Both the position numbers and the translations under genes were made by a program. From the NCBI RefSeq assembly GCF_001484195.1, contig NZ_LLYW01000012.1:1-51175 (forward strand): a stretch of DNA of 51,175 bases. Reading direction: 5' to 3'. The first letter of the stretch is position 1; every line of letters begins with the position of its first letter. Of the stretch, positions 2 through 45,788 are shown piece by piece. The notes under the pieces were generated by a model. That model worked only from the letters and a program-made list of their open reading frames with translations, did not search any database and had not been told where the DNA came from. Source of the DNA: Thermococcus celericrescens (lineage in GTDB: Archaea > Methanobacteriota_B > Thermococci > Thermococcales > Thermococcaceae).

Positions 2-964
2 CCGACGGCAGATGGCAGGCTCAAGCCAGAAGTCGTTGCCCCGGGTGTTGACATCATAGCTCCCCGCGCCAGCGGAACCAGCATGGGCACCCCGATAGAC
101 AACTACTACACCAAGGCCTCCGGTACGAGCATGGCCACTCCCCACGTTGCGGGCCTTGCGGCCCTCATACTCCAGGCCCACCCGACTTGGAGCCCGGACA
201 AGATAAAGACCGCCCTCATCGAGACCGCCGACATAGTCAAGCCCGACGAGATAGCGGACATCGCCTACGGTGCCGGTAGGGTGAACGTGTACAGGGCCAT
301 AAACTACGACAACTACGCCAAGCTCGTCTTCACCGGTTCAGTTGCCGACAAGGGAAGCGCCACCCACGCCTTCGATATCAGCGGCGCGACCTTCGTCACG
401 GCCACGCTCTACTGGGACAACAGCGCGAGCGACCTTGACCTCTACCTCTACGACCCCAACGGAAACCAGGTGGACTACTCATACACCGCCTACTACGGCT
501 TCGAAAAGGTCGGCTACTACAACCCCGCCGCGGGAACCTGGACGATTAAGGTCGTCAGCTACAGCGGTGCAGCCAACTACCAGGTCGACGTCGTCAGCGA
601 CGGCTCTCTGAGCCAGTCCAGCGGAACCACTCCCTCCCCCAGCCCGACACCGACCACCGACAGCCAGACCTTCTCTGGTTCCGTCCACGACTTCTGGGAC
701 ACCAGCGACAGCTTCACCATGACCGTCAACAGCGGCGCGACCAAGATAACCGGAGACCTGACCTTCGACACCAGCGCCCACGACCTCGACCTCTACCTCT
801 ACGACCCCAATGGCAGCATTGTTGACCGCTCTGAAACCTCCAACAGCTACGAGCACGTTGAATACCTCAACCCAGCACCGGGAACCTGGAAGTTCCTTGT
901 TTACGCCTACAGCACCTCAGGCTGGGCCAGCTACCGGCTCGACGTCGTTGTCTACTACGGCTGA
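2..964 (+). CDS. Subtilisin-like serine protease, C-terminal part (5' truncated by window edge)
   Basis: The open frame runs in from the window edge, so the start, catalytic Asp and His lie outside. The catalytic serine block [11 protein letters not shown] is near base 122. Downstream are two similar beta-rich domains, each with a [11 protein letters not shown] motif (near 431 and 784), joined by a Ser/Thr/Pro linker around 625-660. Such domains fold as jelly-roll or PPC-type modules in secreted archaeal proteases. From memory the sequence closely resembles T. kodakarensis Tk-SP, an extracellular heat-stable subtilisin. It would degrade protein outside the cell. The downstream gene is also secreted and starts 42 bases later with its own TATA-like stretch. 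Confidence 0.93.
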
Positions 965-10441: not shown

Positions 10442-10621
10442 CATACTCACCGATGTCATGATACAGTTTTTGGGCATAAAATTCTAGTGTCTCCATTACG
10501 ATGCAATGGTTTTCATTGATCAAAAGTCCGTAGCTTAAGTAATACTATTTCATGGGGGCATAATTTTTTAATGATTTGGGAAGGTATATTCTTTAGTGAG
10601 GTCACAAAGGAGGTGCCGGAT

Positions 10622-11572
10622 ATGATGGAGACAGACCAAAGAAACGGTATTGATGAGCTGCCTGGGATAGACTCTGTTACTGCCCAAAAGCTTCGTGAGG
10701 CAGGCTATGATAGCATCGGGGCCATAGCCGTTGCTTCTCCGATGGAACTCAAGGGGATTGCGGGAATAAGTGAAGGTACAGCGCTCAAGATAATCCGGGC
10801 CGCCAGAAAAATTGCCTTCGTTGATATTTTTATAAGCGCTGAGGAATATATGAAGAAGCTCCAATCGGTTGACAAAATCTCAACAGGCAGCAATAGTTTG
10901 GATTCGATTCTTGGGGGTGGAATATGGACGGAATCAATAACTGAGGTTTTTGGCGGGCACAGAAGTGGCCGGACTCAACTTGCCCACGCTCTTGCGGTGA
11001 TGGTCCAGCTCCCCAAGGACGAAGGGGGTCTTCGCGGTTCGGTCATATGGATAGACACCGAGAACACCTTTAATCCACACCGTATACGGCAGATTGCAGA
11101 AAACCGTGGCCTTGACCCGGAGGAAGTTCTTGGGCATATCTACATCGGCAGGGCTTTCAACAGTAACCATCAGTTGCTTCTTATTGAGAGGGCAGAGGAC
11201 TTGATCCGTGAGAATGCCAAATCAGATAGGCCTGTCAGGTTATTGGTCGTTGATTCAATTCCAGCGCACTTTCGGAGGGAGTACGTGGGCAGAAGAGTCC
11301 TGGCCGAAAGACAGCAGCGGCTGGCAGAGCATTTATCGAACCTTCATCGTATCTCAGAACTTTACAGGGTGGCGGTGCTGATTACCAACGATGCCTCAAT
11401 GGGACGACCGTGGGGTGGCCATCTTCTTGAAGCGACCTCGACGTTTAGACTGTATCTGCGTAAAAAGGGGAGTGGAAACTCAAACAGGGTGGTGGCTCGT
11501 TTGATAAAGTCGCCGCACTTACCCGAAAACGAGGCGATGTTCAGGATAACCGAAAGAGGTATCGAGGATTGA
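10622..11572 (+). CDS. RadA/Rad51 paralogue with degenerate Walker A and shortened L2 loop
   Basis: A 316-aa protein, clearly derived from archaeal RadA: HhH region [19 protein letters not shown], linker, and RecA core with [21 protein letters not shown] and RAFNSNHQ. I chose ATG 10622 because AGGAGGTG is six bases upstream. The P-loop reads GGHRSGRTQ (residues 111-119) where RadA has GEFGSGKTQ, so the catalytic lysine is arginine. After the core strand, [13 protein letters not shown] replaces the ~22-residue segment TNQVQARPD...GGH of RadA, removing most of DNA-binding loop L2. Strand exchange on its own is therefore unlikely. It may regulate RadA or form mixed filaments (inference). It sits just outside the left end of the integrated element. 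Confidence 0.88.
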
Positions 11573-11734: not shown

Positions 11735-11747
11735 TGATGAGTGTCAT
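11735..11747 (+). repeat. Left attachment-like repeat (attL)
   Basis: TGATGAGTGTCAT is repeated at 45734-45746. Base composition changes here: GAAACCCGCCCG lies to the left and AT-rich DNA to the right. Preceded by G, it forms GTGATGA, a valid C box. Joining the left flank to the right one restores a complete C/D sRNA, which supports a recombination site. Confidence 0.5.
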
Positions 11748-11917: not shown

Positions 11918-13177
11918 ATGAGGGAGAACCGGATGAAAATTTTTGAGAAAGCATTAACACCCGACGGTAGTAGTATTGTAGAAAATGCCTTCAAACTAAC
12001 TACGCGTGATTTGGATAACTACAAGCGGCTACTTGTAGAGGCATACGAAAACGGGCGATACTCCTATGGAATGTACAGAAACCTCATGACTGCTTTAAAT
12101 TCCTTCGCCACATACATACTAAACAAAAAGAAGCAAGATGGTGAGATCTATTATGAGGGCCACACTAAAAGAGGCATTAACACAAACCTAACTCCATACG
12201 TGCTAATTAGTGAGAAGGACATTATCTCCTACTTACAAGATCTCTCCCTCCGAGTAAAAAGGCACACTTTCCAAGTGTACTCCTTCTATTTAAAACAAGC
12301 ATTAGACGAGATGCTAGAAATGAAAAAAGGAGGAGAACTCAGTGACTACATCAATGTCTCTAAGGTGTTCTCCGAAAAGAGGTACATAAAAGGAAAGCAT
12401 CTTTATCCAACAAGGCGCAGGAGGAACACAGTAGAAAAACGAAAACTCCTTCTGGATAAGTACAGAGAGTACGAAAATCTCAAATCCGTGACATTAAACG
12501 ATATCTTGGACGCTCTAACATACCTACGCATCCTCAAGACAAAGATCTCGGCAAAAGAAGCTAGAATGACCCAGAGAACCTTTGATGAAGTACGCATTGC
12601 AACGGCATTACTTATCTTCACTGGGGCGAGGAGTACTGAACTGTCAGATCTTCTCGTTAGGGACGTGGAGTTTGAAGAAGACTACATGTTCATAACAAGA
12701 AACAAACTGTCAGAAGACGATATCAAACATAGAACTACTATTTTCCCGCTTCATCCCTTCCTGAAAGCCTCATTGCAGAGTTACATAAGGAAATACCGCT
12801 TGTATCCTGAAAATTACTTGATAAGCTCACAGTACTTAGACAAAAAGATTAGCTATGCATTCAATCCTAGCACATTAAACATAGAAACTGGGTACATCAG
12901 CATAAATGGCAGACGCTACTCAGCGGAAAGTTCAATAATAACAGTAAGGAAGTTCAGAAAATTCTGGGATAATTATGCAGAAGCAAATAGAATGGATTTC
13001 CGAGTGAAAAATTACCTGCTCGGGAGAAGGGTCGGAGTTGACATTGAATACTACGTATCCGTCCTCAGGAACAAAAAAGTGTTCTTTAACATACAGAGCG
13101 AGTATTTCCGAGTTTTTGGAGACCTAGACAAGAAGCTCAGTCCTGTAATTCAGGAGGTGTTTGAAATCAAAATTTAA
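11918..13177 (+). CDS. Tyrosine recombinase (integrase)
   Basis: A 419-aa protein. The C-terminal catalytic half has LLIFTGARSTELSDL near residues 230-244, with the first catalytic arginine in the usual TGxRxxEL box. It also has an RKFRKFW segment near 345 at the HxxR position, LLGRR near 370, and a tyrosine in VDIEYYV near 379. The N-terminal ~200 residues are helical, as in core-binding domains (YRNLMTALNSFATYIL). The gene is intact, not split by integration as SSV-type integrase genes are. It lies 170 bases inside the left repeat and reads into the element, as expected for the enzyme that integrated it. Start ATG 11918 has only a weak GGGGGA upstream. Confidence 0.8.
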   Translation: MRENRMKIFEKALTPDGSSIVENAFKLTTRDLDNYKRLLVEAYENGRYSYGMYRNLMTALNSFATYILNKKKQDGEIYYEGHTKRGINTNLTPYVLISEKDIISYLQDLSLRVKRHTFQVYSFYLKQALDEMLEMKKGGELSDYINVSKVFSEKRYIKGKHLYPTRRRRNTVEKRKLLLDKYREYENLKSVTLNDILDALTYLRILKTKISAKEARMTQRTFDEVRIATALLIFTGARSTELSDLLVRDVEFEEDYMFITRNKLSEDDIKHRTTIFPLHPFLKASLQSYIRKYRLYPENYLISSQYLDKKISYAFNPSTLNIETGYISINGRRYSAESSIITVRKFRKFWDNYAEANRMDFRVKNYLLGRRVGVDIEYYVSVLRNKKVFFNIQSEYFRVFGDLDKKLSPVIQEVFEIKI

Positions 13178-13214: not shown

Positions 13215-13616
13215 ATGTATCCCCATGTTAATTTAAACACCTCCTGTATTAATAAACATTACTGCCCCTCCAACCGTAACCTTTACAGTCTTCTTACTGC
13301 AGTAGGCCTTACCAAGGAAGAATGGCTGGAGCTTCTTGCTGAGTATGTAAGACACTTAGATGAAGCCACATCTAAGAGTGCAGTAACAGCTTTGCTGTAC
13401 ATTGAGGCTCTGAAACTTAGTAACAGGAGAAGTGCCAGAGCATTAAGGAAAATTCTCGAAGAACACTTTGACGAGCTATTTGAGAGAGGAAAGTACGTGG
13501 ACAGCTATTATCCAACTTTTGACCTCATGAGTTTCCTTGCTACAGAAGAAGAGCAGGAGTGCGACTCCAATGCCAGAACAACAAACACAAAAAACAAGCT
13601 GGTGGTGAGCGCATGA
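13215..13616 (+). CDS. Small helical protein coupled to the primase-polymerase gene
   Basis: A 133-aa protein of unrecognised family. GAGGTGA precedes ATG 13215. The N-terminus contains a Cys/His-rich stretch (SCINKHYCPSN), the middle is helical (TKEEWLELLAEYVRHLDEA), and the tail is charged and low-complexity. Its stop overlaps the start of the next gene as ATGA, so the two are translationally coupled; a role as a replication accessory factor or regulator is inferred from this. The gene follows the integrase by 37 bases. Confidence 0.65.
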   Translation: MYPHVNLNTSCINKHYCPSNRNLYSLLTAVGLTKEEWLELLAEYVRHLDEATSKSAVTALLYIEALKLSNRRSARALRKILEEHFDELFERGKYVDSYYPTFDLMSFLATEEEQECDSNARTTNTKNKLVVSA

Positions 13617-15082
13617 GCAAGGAACTAAGCAAATACTACAACGAACCTTTGATGTATGCCATCCAATATCACAAGGAGGGACTTGCAGTGATTCCACTCA
13701 AGTTCAAAACGAAAGAAGCCGCAATTAAATGGAGGCAGTATCAAAAAAAGCGTCCCCCTGCAATAAAACTCGAGAAATGGTTCAAGAAGTCCGAACCTAA
13801 AAATATTGCAATCATATGTGGCGTTGTCTCGGGGAACCTCATTGTAATGGACTTTGATGAAGAAGACAAGTATTATGAATTCCTGAATACTATTGATGAA
13901 GACCTGAAAAACATCATTCTTGGTACAAGAACAGTAATAACTAACAGGGGAAGGCATGTGTATTTAAGAGTCGATTCAGATGAGAAGACGTTCAGGGAAT
14001 TATTCCCTTCAAAACGGAGCGAGAAATGGCATGTTGATTTTCAGTCTGAGGGAAAATATGTGGTTGCGCCACCATCTGTCCATCCATCTGGTCAGAAATA
14101 TGAACTGGAAGGGGAATGGATCGATATCAAAAAAGTCTCCATTGAAACTATGTTAAAAATCAAGAGAGTCCTCTTTCCAGAAGATAAACTCCCAACAGAA
14201 ATCTTGAAAACTAGTAAAAACGCATCATTCAACAAGTCACAGAAGAAAAATGGGCTAACGGAAGCAGATATGCTTGAAATTGCAAATGTACTTGCTCCCG
14301 CATACAAGGAAGGGTTTAGAAACAACATCGTTTACTCCCTCTCAGGATGGCTTGCAAAGGCCGGAATCAGCATGGAAGATGCATTAAAAGTTGCAACATT
14401 TCTGGCTCAAAAAGGAGATGATCCAGATTATGAGACGCCAGAATTTAGGAATAGACTTGACGTGGTAACTAGGAGCTACGAAAAGTGGAGATGTGGAATA
14501 AACGTCGCAGGCAAAAAATATTTAGTAGAGTTCCTAGAAGGGGCGCTGGAGGATGAGGAACAAGTTATTAGCATAATGAAACGTCTCGAAGAGCTCATTG
14601 GTGTCCCAAGCACAAGTTCGGGCATGATATTTGTAGATGAGAACGAAAGTGAAGGATTAGTGTATTATGCGGACCTTGCTGAAAAATACATAGGGAAGGG
14701 GCAGTTCAAAGATAAGAGTGGAAGTAAAAAGACATTCTTAAAAAAGGGACGCATTATTGAGGCAGTTCCAACTAAGGCAATACGTTACATTGATCCAATT
14801 TCCGGCACAGAAAACTTGGATATTGTTTTTGAGTCGAACCTAAGCCCAGTACCCCTGACCTTACAAGGTGTTGAGAGACGAGACATCCTTTCGGTACTAA
14901 AAAGAAATGGCTACATCGTTAAAAACCGCATTGCTGAGGATGCATTGAATGCAATTCTTAACAATATGATCCTAAGTGGACTCGTGGAGACCAAAACTGA
15001 GTTTTCAAAGATGGGAGTCTTTTGGTACCAGGGAGAAATGCACTACACAAAGATAAAACTGCCAGAGGAAATCCGTAGATGA
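13613..15082 (+). CDS. Archaeo-eukaryotic-type primase-polymerase (Prim-Pol)
   Basis: A 489-aa protein; ATG 13613 is used because GGTGGTGAG lies upstream and it overlaps the preceding stop. The N-terminal ~200 residues are a bifunctional Prim-Pol domain: WFKKSEPKNIAIICG, VMDFDEED (the metal-binding DxD), TNRGRHVYLRV, and DFQSEGKYVVAPPSVHPSG, which carries the third acidic and His residues. Such enzymes prime and extend DNA on archaeal plasmids such as pRN1. The middle is helical (PriCT-like, around KEGFRNNIVYSLSGWLAKAG) and the C-terminus looks like a winged helix (LSVLKRNGYIVKNRIAEDALN). The helicase follows in another frame, suggesting a split version of the fused primase-helicase proteins. 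Confidence 0.88.
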   Translation: MSKELSKYYNEPLMYAIQYHKEGLAVIPLKFKTKEAAIKWRQYQKKRPPAIKLEKWFKKSEPKNIAIICGVVSGNLIVMDFDEEDKYYEFLNTIDEDLKNIILGTRTVITNRGRHVYLRVDSDEKTFRELFPSKRSEKWHVDFQSEGKYVVAPPSVHPSGQKYELEGEWIDIKKVSIETMLKIKRVLFPEDKLPTEILKTSKNASFNKSQKKNGLTEADMLEIANVLAPAYKEGFRNNIVYSLSGWLAKAGISMEDALKVATFLAQKGDDPDYETPEFRNRLDVVTRSYEKWRCGINVAGKKYLVEFLEGALEDEEQVISIMKRLEELIGVPSTSSGMIFVDENESEGLVYYADLAEKYIGKGQFKDKSGSKKTFLKKGRIIEAVPTKAIRYIDPISGTENLDIVFESNLSPVPLTLQGVERRDILSVLKRNGYIVKNRIAEDALNAILNNMILSGLVETKTEFSKMGVFWYQGEMHYTKIKLPEEIRR

Positions 15083-15116
15083 ACTAAGGGAAGCACTAGA
15101 AATATTAGATGAAATC

Positions 15117-16253
15117 GTGACAAGGTGGTATGGAACTGAACAGGAGAAATTCGTGACAGTGCTGAAATGGAGCACGGTAGCTCCCTTTGCATTCATGCAA
15201 AAACAAAAAAGGGGATGGTTACCTTGGCTCTTCTTAGTTGGGGCAGCAGGAACCGGAAAATCAACAATAGCGCTTTTAGCAACTAGCATATGGGGGGACC
15301 AAGTAGTAATTGAGGAGAAAAGTGGTGCATCAGCGGCGACACCAGCTAGGTTTACAAAAATCATCGAGGAAACTACATTCCCAGTGATAATAAGTGAACC
15401 TGGAGAGATGTTTGGCAGAGATGACACGACAGAGCTGATTAAGAACTCAGTAACATCAACAATTGCAAGAGGACGCTATGTCCAAGGAGTGTACGTTACA
15501 TCCAAAGCATTATCCCCTGTAATATTTACATCGAATAAACTACTGCCAACCGATGATGCACTGTTAAGAAGGTTTCACGTGCTCTATTTTGAAATTCAGG
15601 AACGAAAAACTAGAGAGGAGGCAGAAAAATTTGAAAGGATCAAAAAAGAGGCAATGAAAAAACTAAGAGTCATTGGAGATGCAATATTGTTTCTCGTCAA
15701 GAATAAAGGAGACATTGAATTTACACCAAACAACTGGCCCGAAATAGCTACAGAATTATTAAGAGAGATCTACACCCTCAGCGGACAAGAAGAACCTAAA
15801 TGGTTAAATCTCTTTGCTGACAGTAGGACACTGGTAGATTACGAGGATAACCTTATGAGCCGCATCAGAACGATGATAATTGAAGAAGTAAATAACGCAT
15901 ACAGAATGTTTCCGGACAAGGGGGTAGAGCACAATAACTTCATGTACCGCCTCATAAAGGTCATTGAAAAAGAAGCCATTCCCTGGTTAAAAGAGAGAAA
16001 TGGGGATGTCATTATCACAAGAGAAATCCAAGAACCTCTCAGAAAACATGTTGGTGAGCTATCAATGAAAAGTCTTGCCACATTAATTGGAGGGAGCTAT
16101 GGAGTTAGACGAGTTAGCAAGAAGAACACAAAAGTCGTGGCAATTAACCTGTACAAGCTTCTAGAGTTTTTACAGGTAGAAGATGAACTTGAGAGTGACG
16201 AACCTGAAGATGAACTAAACGTGGAGACAATAACTATCCCAGCAGGGGGATGA
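15117..16253 (+). CDS. SF3/D5-like replicative helicase (AAA+ ATPase)
   Basis: A 378-aa protein with Walker A GAAGTGKST near residues 42-50, an acidic Walker B-like PVIISEPGEMF near 94, sensor PVIFTSN near 140 and an RRF arginine near 153. This is the compact AAA+ core of SF3-type plasmid and phage helicases; the C-terminal part ends in a winged-helix-like region. GTG 15117 is the only plausible start and it lacks a ribosome site. The frame upstream of it already looks coding (DELREALEILDEIV) back into the end of the Prim-Pol gene, so it may be reached by frameshifting or may have lost its start. Confidence 0.78.
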   Translation: MTRWYGTEQEKFVTVLKWSTVAPFAFMQKQKRGWLPWLFLVGAAGTGKSTIALLATSIWGDQVVIEEKSGASAATPARFTKIIEETTFPVIISEPGEMFGRDDTTELIKNSVTSTIARGRYVQGVYVTSKALSPVIFTSNKLLPTDDALLRRFHVLYFEIQERKTREEAEKFERIKKEAMKKLRVIGDAILFLVKNKGDIEFTPNNWPEIATELLREIYTLSGQEEPKWLNLFADSRTLVDYEDNLMSRIRTMIIEEVNNAYRMFPDKGVEHNNFMYRLIKVIEKEAIPWLKERNGDVIITREIQEPLRKHVGELSMKSLATLIGGSYGVRRVSKKNTKVVAINLYKLLEFLQVEDELESDEPEDELNVETITIPAGG

Positions 16254-16254
16254 T

Positions 16255-16271
16255 CTCCCTTTCTTTTTTTC
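16255..16271 (+). terminator. Poly-T terminator after the replication genes
   Basis: CTCCCTTTCTTTTTTTC follows directly on the helicase stop, typical of archaeal intrinsic termination. Confidence 0.5.
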
Positions 16272-16375
16272 AGTTGTTATGTTACTGAAGGGAATTCTAA
16301 CGGGGTATGGCTGGAGAGAATACAGGAAGAGAATCCGAGTACCAAGTCCGAGCGAAGAGACTGGAGTCACAAACC

Positions 16376-16516
16376 GCTACCAGCAAACCCGCCGCTACCC
16401 TGCATAGTGCATGCATCCATAATAAAACGTTAATATCATGATAACAAGGTAGCACTGGTAGCGGAGGTAGCGCTAAAAACTAAAAAAACTGGTGGTAGCG
16501 AGGTAGCATAGGTAGC
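16376..16516. repeat. GGTAGC iteron array (origin candidate)
   Basis: GGTAGC occurs at 16448, 16457, 16466, 16494, 16502 and 16511, in two triplets with 8-9 bp spacing. GCTACC occurs at 16376 and 16394 in reverse orientation. Regular phasing next to Prim-Pol and helicase genes suggests initiator binding sites. Confidence 0.7.
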
Positions 16517-16695
16517 AGTTTTTTCTAATAAAAATACAGTTTTTAGTATCCTCTGTTTGACTGAGAGTGTTTTTAACTCGGAGCTGAAAAAACAAAGAAA
16601 GTGTTAATATCCTCTGTCTACGCACTTGTTGGCTAAAGGTACTCATCTTAAATAAATCTAGAACGTGACACTCAAACTCCAGAAGGGTTAATCTC

Positions 16696-16733
16696 AAGTT
16701 TTCGAGTTAACATCAACATTAACTCGAAAACTT
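16696..16733. repeat. Perfect 15-bp inverted repeat
   Basis: AAGTTTTCGAGTTAA (16696-16710) and its exact complement TTAACTCGAAAACTT (16719-16733) are separated by 8 bp. It lies about 180 bp beyond the iterons and may be part of the origin, a cruciform or a dimeric protein site. Confidence 0.8.
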
Positions 16734-17040
16734 CAAGAAACATCCCCAAGATCCTCCCCAAAGTAACACTAACTATCTTTCTTTTTTGGTACCCCCTGCA
16801 GATTATGGTTTAATCGGCTCTGTTGGAATCCTTTAATTGCTCTATTCAGAAGAGCTTTAGTTTGTTATCGCTAGATCAAAGTTAATTATGCCTTATCTCC
16901 AATTACAAGGAGGGACATGCTTTTGTCGTGCATGGATATTTAGAATCTTGAAATTAATCCTCCAAAAATTTGCCTGTCATTGCAATTATTCTTGCGTAAT
17001 AACGAAAAAAACAACAATAGCCCCCTTGCACGAGTATTAT

Positions 17041-18033
17041 TTAACCCTGTCCATACATGTAAAGGGCTTTTAGAAGCTTCTCATACAGTTTGCCTCCAAG
17101 TCGAAACCGGTTATTCTTCAGATATCTCTCCAATTCCTCAGGGGATAATGCTTTGTACAACAGATACTCATCCACCTGTTCTCGGATAAAGTACCAAACG
17201 GTGGTGTATGAAACTAGTTTAAGGAGCCCGGGGAACGCCATATTTAGTTTCCACTCTCGCTCTTCTCTGTTCTCACTTGTAAACCATATCTTGATCAGTT
17301 GTAATTTAAACTCATGGATAATATTTTGTTTTTTAATGTAATTACTAGGCTGAATCCCGGAAATTTCAAAATATGCATCAGCTACAGAATTTCCAAGTCC
17401 TCCCTGCTTGGGCTTGTACCGTTTACGTTTTTTTCTAATTTTTCTCTCTCCCTCCTGAGAACCCAGCACTCTGTAGATGGCAGCCCTTACTGCTGGTATG
17501 AATTTAGAGCCTCGCCTCCCACAAACCTCCACTAGCTGCTCCTCAGTTATCTCCCCACTTTTAAGGAGTTCTTTAATATCATCCTCGTTGGTTTTTTTGA
17601 GAAGCCGAATAAACGCATACCGTGATCTAGGAACTGGGCTACTGCACCATTGCAATACATCATGAATGTCGTATTCTCCTTTTAAAAACCGCGTTAAGTT
17701 ACTCATTGTTGCCTCTTCATCCAAGGGTTGTTTGGGATTCTTGAAAGACCATCTTTTCTTGCGCTTACAATGGTAAATGTAAAACTCTTGTAATTCTTGG
17801 AGTAAGCAGTCTACTTTTTTCTTCCAGTTGAGGGTAGGGTTTAGGTAGTACTTTAAAACCAGTGGGATCAAAACCCTTTCTGCTCTGTAAATATCCTCTG
17901 GAGTTAGGTCTTTTATGGGTTTTTTAAACAAATATGCCGCGTAATACATGCTAAGAGAAGGTTTCCCCCGTTTAACGTTGCTTGAACCTCTATTGATATG
18001 ATGATCCATGATCTGACGTAGCCTCTTTAACAA
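17041..18033 (-). CDS. Basic orphan protein
   Basis: A 330-aa protein of no family I recognise. It is strongly basic, with a KIRKKRKRYKPKQGG patch near residue 205, and mostly helical; WYFIREQVDEYLLYKALSPEELERYLKNN lies near the C-terminus. The best-supported start is TTG 18033, with GGGGAC upstream; ATG 18009 (MDHHINRG) is an alternative. It faces away from the restriction genes and back towards the iteron region, so it may be a DNA-binding replication or maintenance protein, which is inference only. Codon use is AT-rich like the rest of the element. Confidence 0.6.
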   Translation of the reverse strand: MLKRLRQIMDHHINRGSSNVKRGKPSLSMYYAAYLFKKPIKDLTPEDIYRAERVLIPLVLKYYLNPTLNWKKKVDCLLQELQEFYIYHCKRKKRWSFKNPKQPLDEEATMSNLTRFLKGEYDIHDVLQWCSSPVPRSRYAFIRLLKKTNEDDIKELLKSGEITEEQLVEVCGRRGSKFIPAVRAAIYRVLGSQEGERKIRKKRKRYKPKQGGLGNSVADAYFEISGIQPSNYIKKQNIIHEFKLQLIKIWFTSENREEREWKLNMAFPGLLKLVSYTTVWYFIREQVDEYLLYKALSPEELERYLKNNRFRLGGKLYEKLLKALYMYGQG

Positions 18034-45727: not shown

Positions 45728-45730
45728 TGC

Positions 45731-45788
45731 CGATGATGAGTGTCATCCCTCCTGATGCCAAGATGATGACATTATCCCCACCTGAGGT
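45731..45788 (+). ncRNA. C/D box guide sRNA
   Basis: All four boxes are in order: C box ATGATGA (45733-45739), 12-nt guide, D' CTGA (45752-45755), 7-nt linker, C' ATGATGA (45763-45769), 12-nt guide, D CTGA (45782-45785). The guide lengths and spacing match archaeal 2'-O-methylation guides. The D guide (45770-45781, CATTATCCCCAC) pairs with GUGGGGAUAAUG, and the D' guide (45740-45751) with GAGGGAUGACAC; the targets are not known to me. The D box is adjacent to the ribosome site of the next gene, so both may share a transcript. Confidence 0.85.
45734..45746 (+). repeat. Right attachment-like repeat (attR) inside the sRNA
   Basis: The second copy of TGATGAGTGTCAT, identical to 11735-11747, covers the C box and the start of the D' guide of the sRNA. 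Confidence 0.5.

Follow-up and report, generated by a model that had tools for sequence, protein, structure and literature searches.

Iteron origins served by self-loading helicases are already known in bacteria, and plasmid pRN1 of Sulfolobus islandicus is known as an archaeal case. In pRN1, a 100-bp stem-loop located 3' of orf904 serves as the origin and is sufficient for replication in combination with the rep operon (Berkner 2014, PMC4234260; Joshua 2013, PMC3869888). It has been described as having no iteron structure, and compensatory mutations in the stem rescued replication solely where they re-established symmetry (PMC4234260). In the bacterial systems SaPI and SCCmec, the iterons lie immediately downstream of the helicase gene and are bound by the C-terminal domain of its product (Rep and Cch2, respectively); SaPI Rep apparently acts as two hexamers (PMC7581432). 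The pT26-2 plasmid family of archaea has seven conserved core genes, and a published analysis of its putative origins saw no conserved consensus (Badel 2019, PMC6972569). An earlier note on the DNA described here had remarked that few archaeal origins of this sort are known; few archaeal plasmid or virus origins have indeed been mapped, but the SaPI/SCC origins of bacteria resemble this one closely (PMC7581432).

The window, as the whole stretch of 51,175 nucleotides analysed is called, is an entire contig of the 2.34-Mb genome of Thermococcus celericrescens. It harbours a 34-kb integrated element of plasmid- or virus-like character, with low G+C content from ~11.7 to ~45.7 kb, and sequence comparison makes it highly probable that the GGTAGC cluster within 16376-16733 serves, or until recently served, as the origin from which that element replicates. 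The features concerned are the following.

11735..11747, no strand: attL core TGATGAGTGTCAT, left end of the element (13-bp direct repeat; empty site in L024)
11918..13177, plus strand: tyrosine integrase, 419 aa, uninterrupted (weak Pfam and PHROG integrase matches; relatives in 11 other genomes)
13559..15082, plus strand: 5' part of rep, Prim-Pol domain (PF09250, E 9.6e-22; 29% to pORA1 Rep)
15057..16253, plus strand: 3' part of rep in another frame, SF3/D5-like AAA+ helicase, DUF5906-like (30% to pORA1 Rep over 93%)
15918..16196, plus strand: C-terminal winged-helix-like domain, proposed iteron reader (predicted H-EE-H-H-EE-H; weak PDB matches)
16376..16399, minus strand: two inverted iterons, GCTACC, starting at 16376 and 16394 (motif search)
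16400..16447, no strand: spacer of 48 nt, 69% AT, containing GTG; proposed melting site (sequence)
16448..16471, plus strand: iteron triplet 1, GGTAGC, 9-bp period (motif search)
16483..16524, no strand: inverted repeat AAAAAACTG / CAGTTTTTT, enclosing the second triplet (repeat search)
16494..16516, plus strand: iteron triplet 2, GGTAGC, 8-9-bp period (motif search)
16696..16733, no strand: perfect 15-bp inverted repeat AAGTTTTCGAGTTAA-N8-TTAACTCGAAAACTT (arms 16696-16710 and 16719-16733, 8-nt spacer)
45734..45746, no strand: attR core TGATGAGTGTCAT, right end of the element, within the sR55 gene (13-bp direct repeat; L024; Rfam)

The borders of the element are given by an empty site in the relative L024, in which the sequence left of 11747 joins directly that right of 45746, and homology to relatives picks up again at ~45730 in nearly all of them. 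The element is inserted into sR55, a C/D-box sRNA gene (45729-45787; Rfam RF01307, 66.7 bits), the att core spanning box C plus the beginning of the guide. A review of archaeal tyrosine recombinases gives tRNA genes, intergenic sequence and protein genes as targets, and no mention of an sRNA or snoRNA target was found in it (PMC8371274). Five other genomes (G009, G013, G024, G030 and G031) contain relatives of the integrase (~30-37% identity) at 0.7-21 kb upstream of the gene adjoining sR55, which therefore looks like a recurrent integration site. Assigned in part from a reading of the sequence, the cargo at 18351-43314 comprises type I restriction-modification genes, including two methylase and two specificity genes, together with a McrBC-like pair and a 1483-aa helicase-like protein weakly similar to MkoA. 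Just outside attL lies a RadA-like gene (10571-11572), apparently divergent from the housekeeping RadA, in a stretch that is absent from several relatives.

The repeats had been noted as adjoining a Prim-Pol gene and a helicase gene. Their position 3' of these coding sequences stands, but the two ORFs are better described as one rep gene of the pORA1/HAV2 type carrying a frameshift. Each aligns to the single fused pORA1 protein over 92-93% of the ORF length, and Rep identity to HAV2 is 37-38%. The linker ELREALEILDEI, conserved relative to pORA1 and HAV2, is situated upstream of the GTG at 15117, and it is because this conserved linker sits in another frame, its spacing off by one base relative to pORA1, that the two ORFs are taken as a single frameshifted gene. 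The frameshift, of +1 type, falls at 15057-15116 within the Prim-Pol/helicase linker, an interval with no obvious slippery site; mutation, recoding or a sequence error may each account for it. A structure search with the whole helicase returned D5/Cch/MCM-type AAA+ matches, all with low TM-scores, and the window helicase is 24% identical to t26-22p over 92%. Relatives were recovered better by alignments than by scans, which yielded none when the window helicase or pORA1 Rep was run against genome contigs, or the window helicase alone against viral contigs. A rep match likewise spread across two annotated ORFs was seen in the Methanothermobacter plasmid NZ_CP113502.

Since rep is frameshifted, this copy may be inactive. 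The site could then be a decayed origin within a fixed genomic island devoted to defence, its identity unchanged but replication lost, an interpretation with which the predominance of restriction-modification genes in the cargo agrees. Against it, the integrase is open, the att cores are intact, all eight hexamers are exact and the helicase residues are conserved; the frameshift itself may reflect recoding or a mistake in the sequence. Decay of this kind is judged a serious possibility, at somewhat below even chances.

The array that would constitute the origin lies in a gene-free stretch of 787 bp (16254-17040) flanked by convergent genes. On the plus strand GGTAGC starts at 16448, 16457 and 16466 and again at 16494, 16502 and 16511 (periods 9, 9 and 8, 9), with 28 separating the triplets; with the inverted pair, the array can be written '- - [54] +++ [28] +++'. 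Re-examination thus confirmed what had been reported of the two triplets, the two inverted copies and the size of the gene-free region, as it did the perfect 15-bp inverted repeat. The cumulative GC skew changes sign near 16.5-17 kb, where gene direction also flips and confounds it. An Rfam search of the region returned no match, which leaves an RNA reading without support. The 330-aa protein convergent with rep (17041-18033, minus strand) matched no Pfam or PHROG family.

The non-coding region beside rep was compared among relatives of the window Rep. The earlier note had named a search for the same repeats in homologous elements as a test capable of refuting an origin. The layout does recur beside rep, but each element has its own iteron sequence: other hexamers are repeated every 8-9 bp, with inverted partners mostly 54-60 nt away. 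It lies 3' of rep in pORA1, HAV2, Drs3, vir080, a Methanothermobacter DP plasmid and viral contigs L066, L067, L068, L079 and L081, and 5' of rep in Thermococcus pT26-2, pGE2, the integrants L051-L054 and pTI1. The matches closest to the window array are those of Drs3, L067, L068, L079, L081 and pTI1. No such layout was present beside rep in pRN2, pIT3, L055 or L056; pRN2 has a stem with a 57-nt loop and no repeated units, and pIT3 direct repeats only. Away from rep, the triplet-plus-inverted layout was found in 5 of 6464 tiles, every one in pTI1; the strong array there proved to be that situated 5' of rep, beyond the stretch initially counted as rep-adjacent. Because inspection of the first elements preceded the choice of layout criteria, L066-L081, L051-L054 and pTI1 constitute the more independent tests.

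The closest Rep homologues are those of pORA1 (Sulfolobus neozealandicus) and HAV2 (Hyperthermophilic Archaeal Virus 2), both with inverted repeats 3' of rep as in the window. pORA1 keeps the core GTAGC at an offset from the rep stop nearly that of the window (117-217 versus 121-211) and has a 12-bp inverted repeat, CTTTGTAGCCTG / CAGGCTACAAAG, with a spacer of 77, also 3' of rep; the HAV2 unit is GTAAGA. Both differ from the window element in an unbroken rep and a wider spacing (87 nt in pORA1, 84 nt in HAV2), spacer and offsets varying between elements. We know of no experimental mapping of the pORA1 or HAV2 origins, and the literature searched contained nothing on where Drs3 or HAV2 replication begins.

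Methanobacteriales virus Drs3, vir080, L066-L068, L079 and L081 resemble the window element in an array 3' of rep with an inverted unit 54-73 nt distant and two same-strand triplets of 8-9-bp period, in place of which vir080 has two doublets. The five viral contigs carry two triplets like those of the window, L067 only through a 5-base core. The units are GGTTGA (12 copies) in Drs3, AGTAAC in vir080 and GTAACA (15 copies) in the Methanothermobacter plasmid. This group differs from the window in its hexamers (GTAAC or GGTTGA), and the ORFs of the Rep relatives found there do not include a Prim-Pol half. In the pT26-2 family, t26-22p is a homologous helicase and clusters opposed at 58-60 nt adjoin rep in pT26-2, pGE2 and L051-L054; unlike that of the window, the array is 5' of rep and Rep lacks a Prim-Pol signature. 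L051 (G000:C13:36488-37864), a second element in the genome to which the window belongs, encodes a Rep sharing 93% identity with the pT26-2 protein; a GTCACA array of its own lies 5' of this rep. In pTI1 the order 5' of rep is ACCACC three times, three times again, and two inverted copies 58 nt further. The origin interpretation is supported by this recurrence in homologues and by the site required in pRN1, which is also 3' of rep (PMC4234260, PMC3869888); with a layout common to distant relatives, the case is better supported than the earlier note could know.

The comparison with pRN1 introduces a second alternative, in which the stem-loop at approximately 16374-16472 is the working part and the hexamers result incidentally from the stem. 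In the window 16375-16381 and 16392-16399 pair with 16457-16464 and 16466-16472 to form an imperfect nested stem of 98 bp, comparable to the ~100-bp stem-loop 3' of rep that typifies the pRN1 family, and the GTG-bearing loop of 57 nt is very near the 58 nt of pRN1. The pRN1 stem of 21 bp, ATGTCCATAGTGTCCAAC, itself contains two GTCCA units per arm at 9-bp spacing, inverted across the loop, and both sites lie 3' of a Prim-Pol/SF3 rep. pRN1 differs in having four units in a perfect stem as against eight units in two triplets and an inverted pair, and in its helicase, which is distant (hhalign probability 77%, ATPase part); tblastn with both halves of the window rep gave no match to ORF904 of pRN1. 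The CopG-like ORF56 found upstream of rep in the pRN1 family has no counterpart here, the ORF in that position encoding a 133-aa protein with no Pfam or PHROG match. A dependence on stem symmetry such as that established for pRN1 (PMC4234260) would favour the hairpin; however, no stem partner exists for triplet 2 of the window or for the majority of copies in relatives that have two triplets against one inverted copy, and in L067 a single inverted copy faces six. DNA folding at temperatures over 60 °C produced structures that were implausible and were disregarded, stem stability at growth temperature not being reliably computable. A hairpin as the working part is accordingly considered unlikely.

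Still less likely is an operator array whose hexamers bind a transcription or partition factor, for example the 133-aa protein. Operators or centromere-like sites can consist of short repeated hexamers and a palindrome, but with convergent flanking genes no gene starts in the region, the array is linked across distant elements to rep and not to any regulator gene, and no family could be assigned to the 133-aa protein, whose role as binder of the site is less well supported.

Chance or unrelated simple repeats are for practical purposes refuted, notwithstanding that GGTAGC is not enriched across the whole 51 kb (18 observed, 14 expected) and that bare triplets occur in viral contigs, since the layout recurs in homologues, has no second occurrence in the window and was reproduced in none of 5000 shuffles (a triplet of any hexamer at 8-10-bp period plus an inverted copy 45-100 nt off). 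Eight copies of GGTAGC were counted in the 787-bp region, compared with at most three in any of 2000 dinucleotide shuffles; the signal is one of clustering, not of abundance. Because at least 120 unrelated-looking viral stretches match it, a bare GGTAGC triplet is not diagnostic by itself.

If the site is an origin, Rep, comprising Prim-Pol, SF3/D5-like helicase and C-terminal winged-helix-like domain, would be made from the gene just upstream and would read the GGTAGC hexamers through its C-terminal domain. As the hexamers face each other across ~54 bp, two oppositely oriented helicase rings may be assembled around the spacer; these would melt its AT-rich 48 nt, where the Prim-Pol domain could then prime. 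SaPI and SCCmec share with this proposed scheme a self-loading helicase, C-terminal iteron binding and a partner primase, and their initiator helicase gene, like that of the window, is immediately followed by several short direct repeats, but they are bacterial and of other helicase branches, so that the likeness is one of mechanism and general fold only.

The order predicted for the helicase C-terminus is that of a winged helix. Its PDB matches are weak and not significant (best E 0.02); the top match is the relaxosome protein TcpK on oriT DNA, and SaPIbov1 Rep is also among them. Between close pairs of t26-22p Reps with different iterons, 50-column blocks are 74-100% identical over the first 600 residues and 62-90% identical in the last blocks, the most variable part. 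This divergence fits a C-terminal iteron reader, although it is only suggestive.

It seems rather likely that pORA1, HAV2, pT26-2, pGE2, pTI1, the Methanobacteriales viruses and the window element share one ancestral origin architecture, in which iterons of 8-9-bp period form opposed clusters mostly ~58 bp apart beside rep and the iteron sequence and the Rep C-terminal domain change together. pRN1 is included with less support. Were the shared architecture true, its 'stem-loop' would be a reduced case, a reading that stays tentative because the hexamer count in pRN1 is not significant alone (p 0.19) and the compensatory stem mutants support a structural role. The common layout across archaeal elements appears to be new within the open-access papers searched. 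Being independent of the letters of the repeat, it offers a simple rule for finding origins in archaeal mobile elements, a testable model of two opposed helicase rings ~58 bp apart with the Rep C-terminal domain as reader, and origins that could be tried in vectors for Thermococcus.

As for the 15-bp inverted repeat, its existence and perfection are confirmed, but a function for it is less well supported. No copy was found elsewhere among 61 genomes of the genus, and the second match of the region in its own genome is nothing more than this palindrome against itself. Right beside the second triplet lies an imperfect direct repeat (16542-16560 and 16603-16621) with ATCCTCTGT in common.
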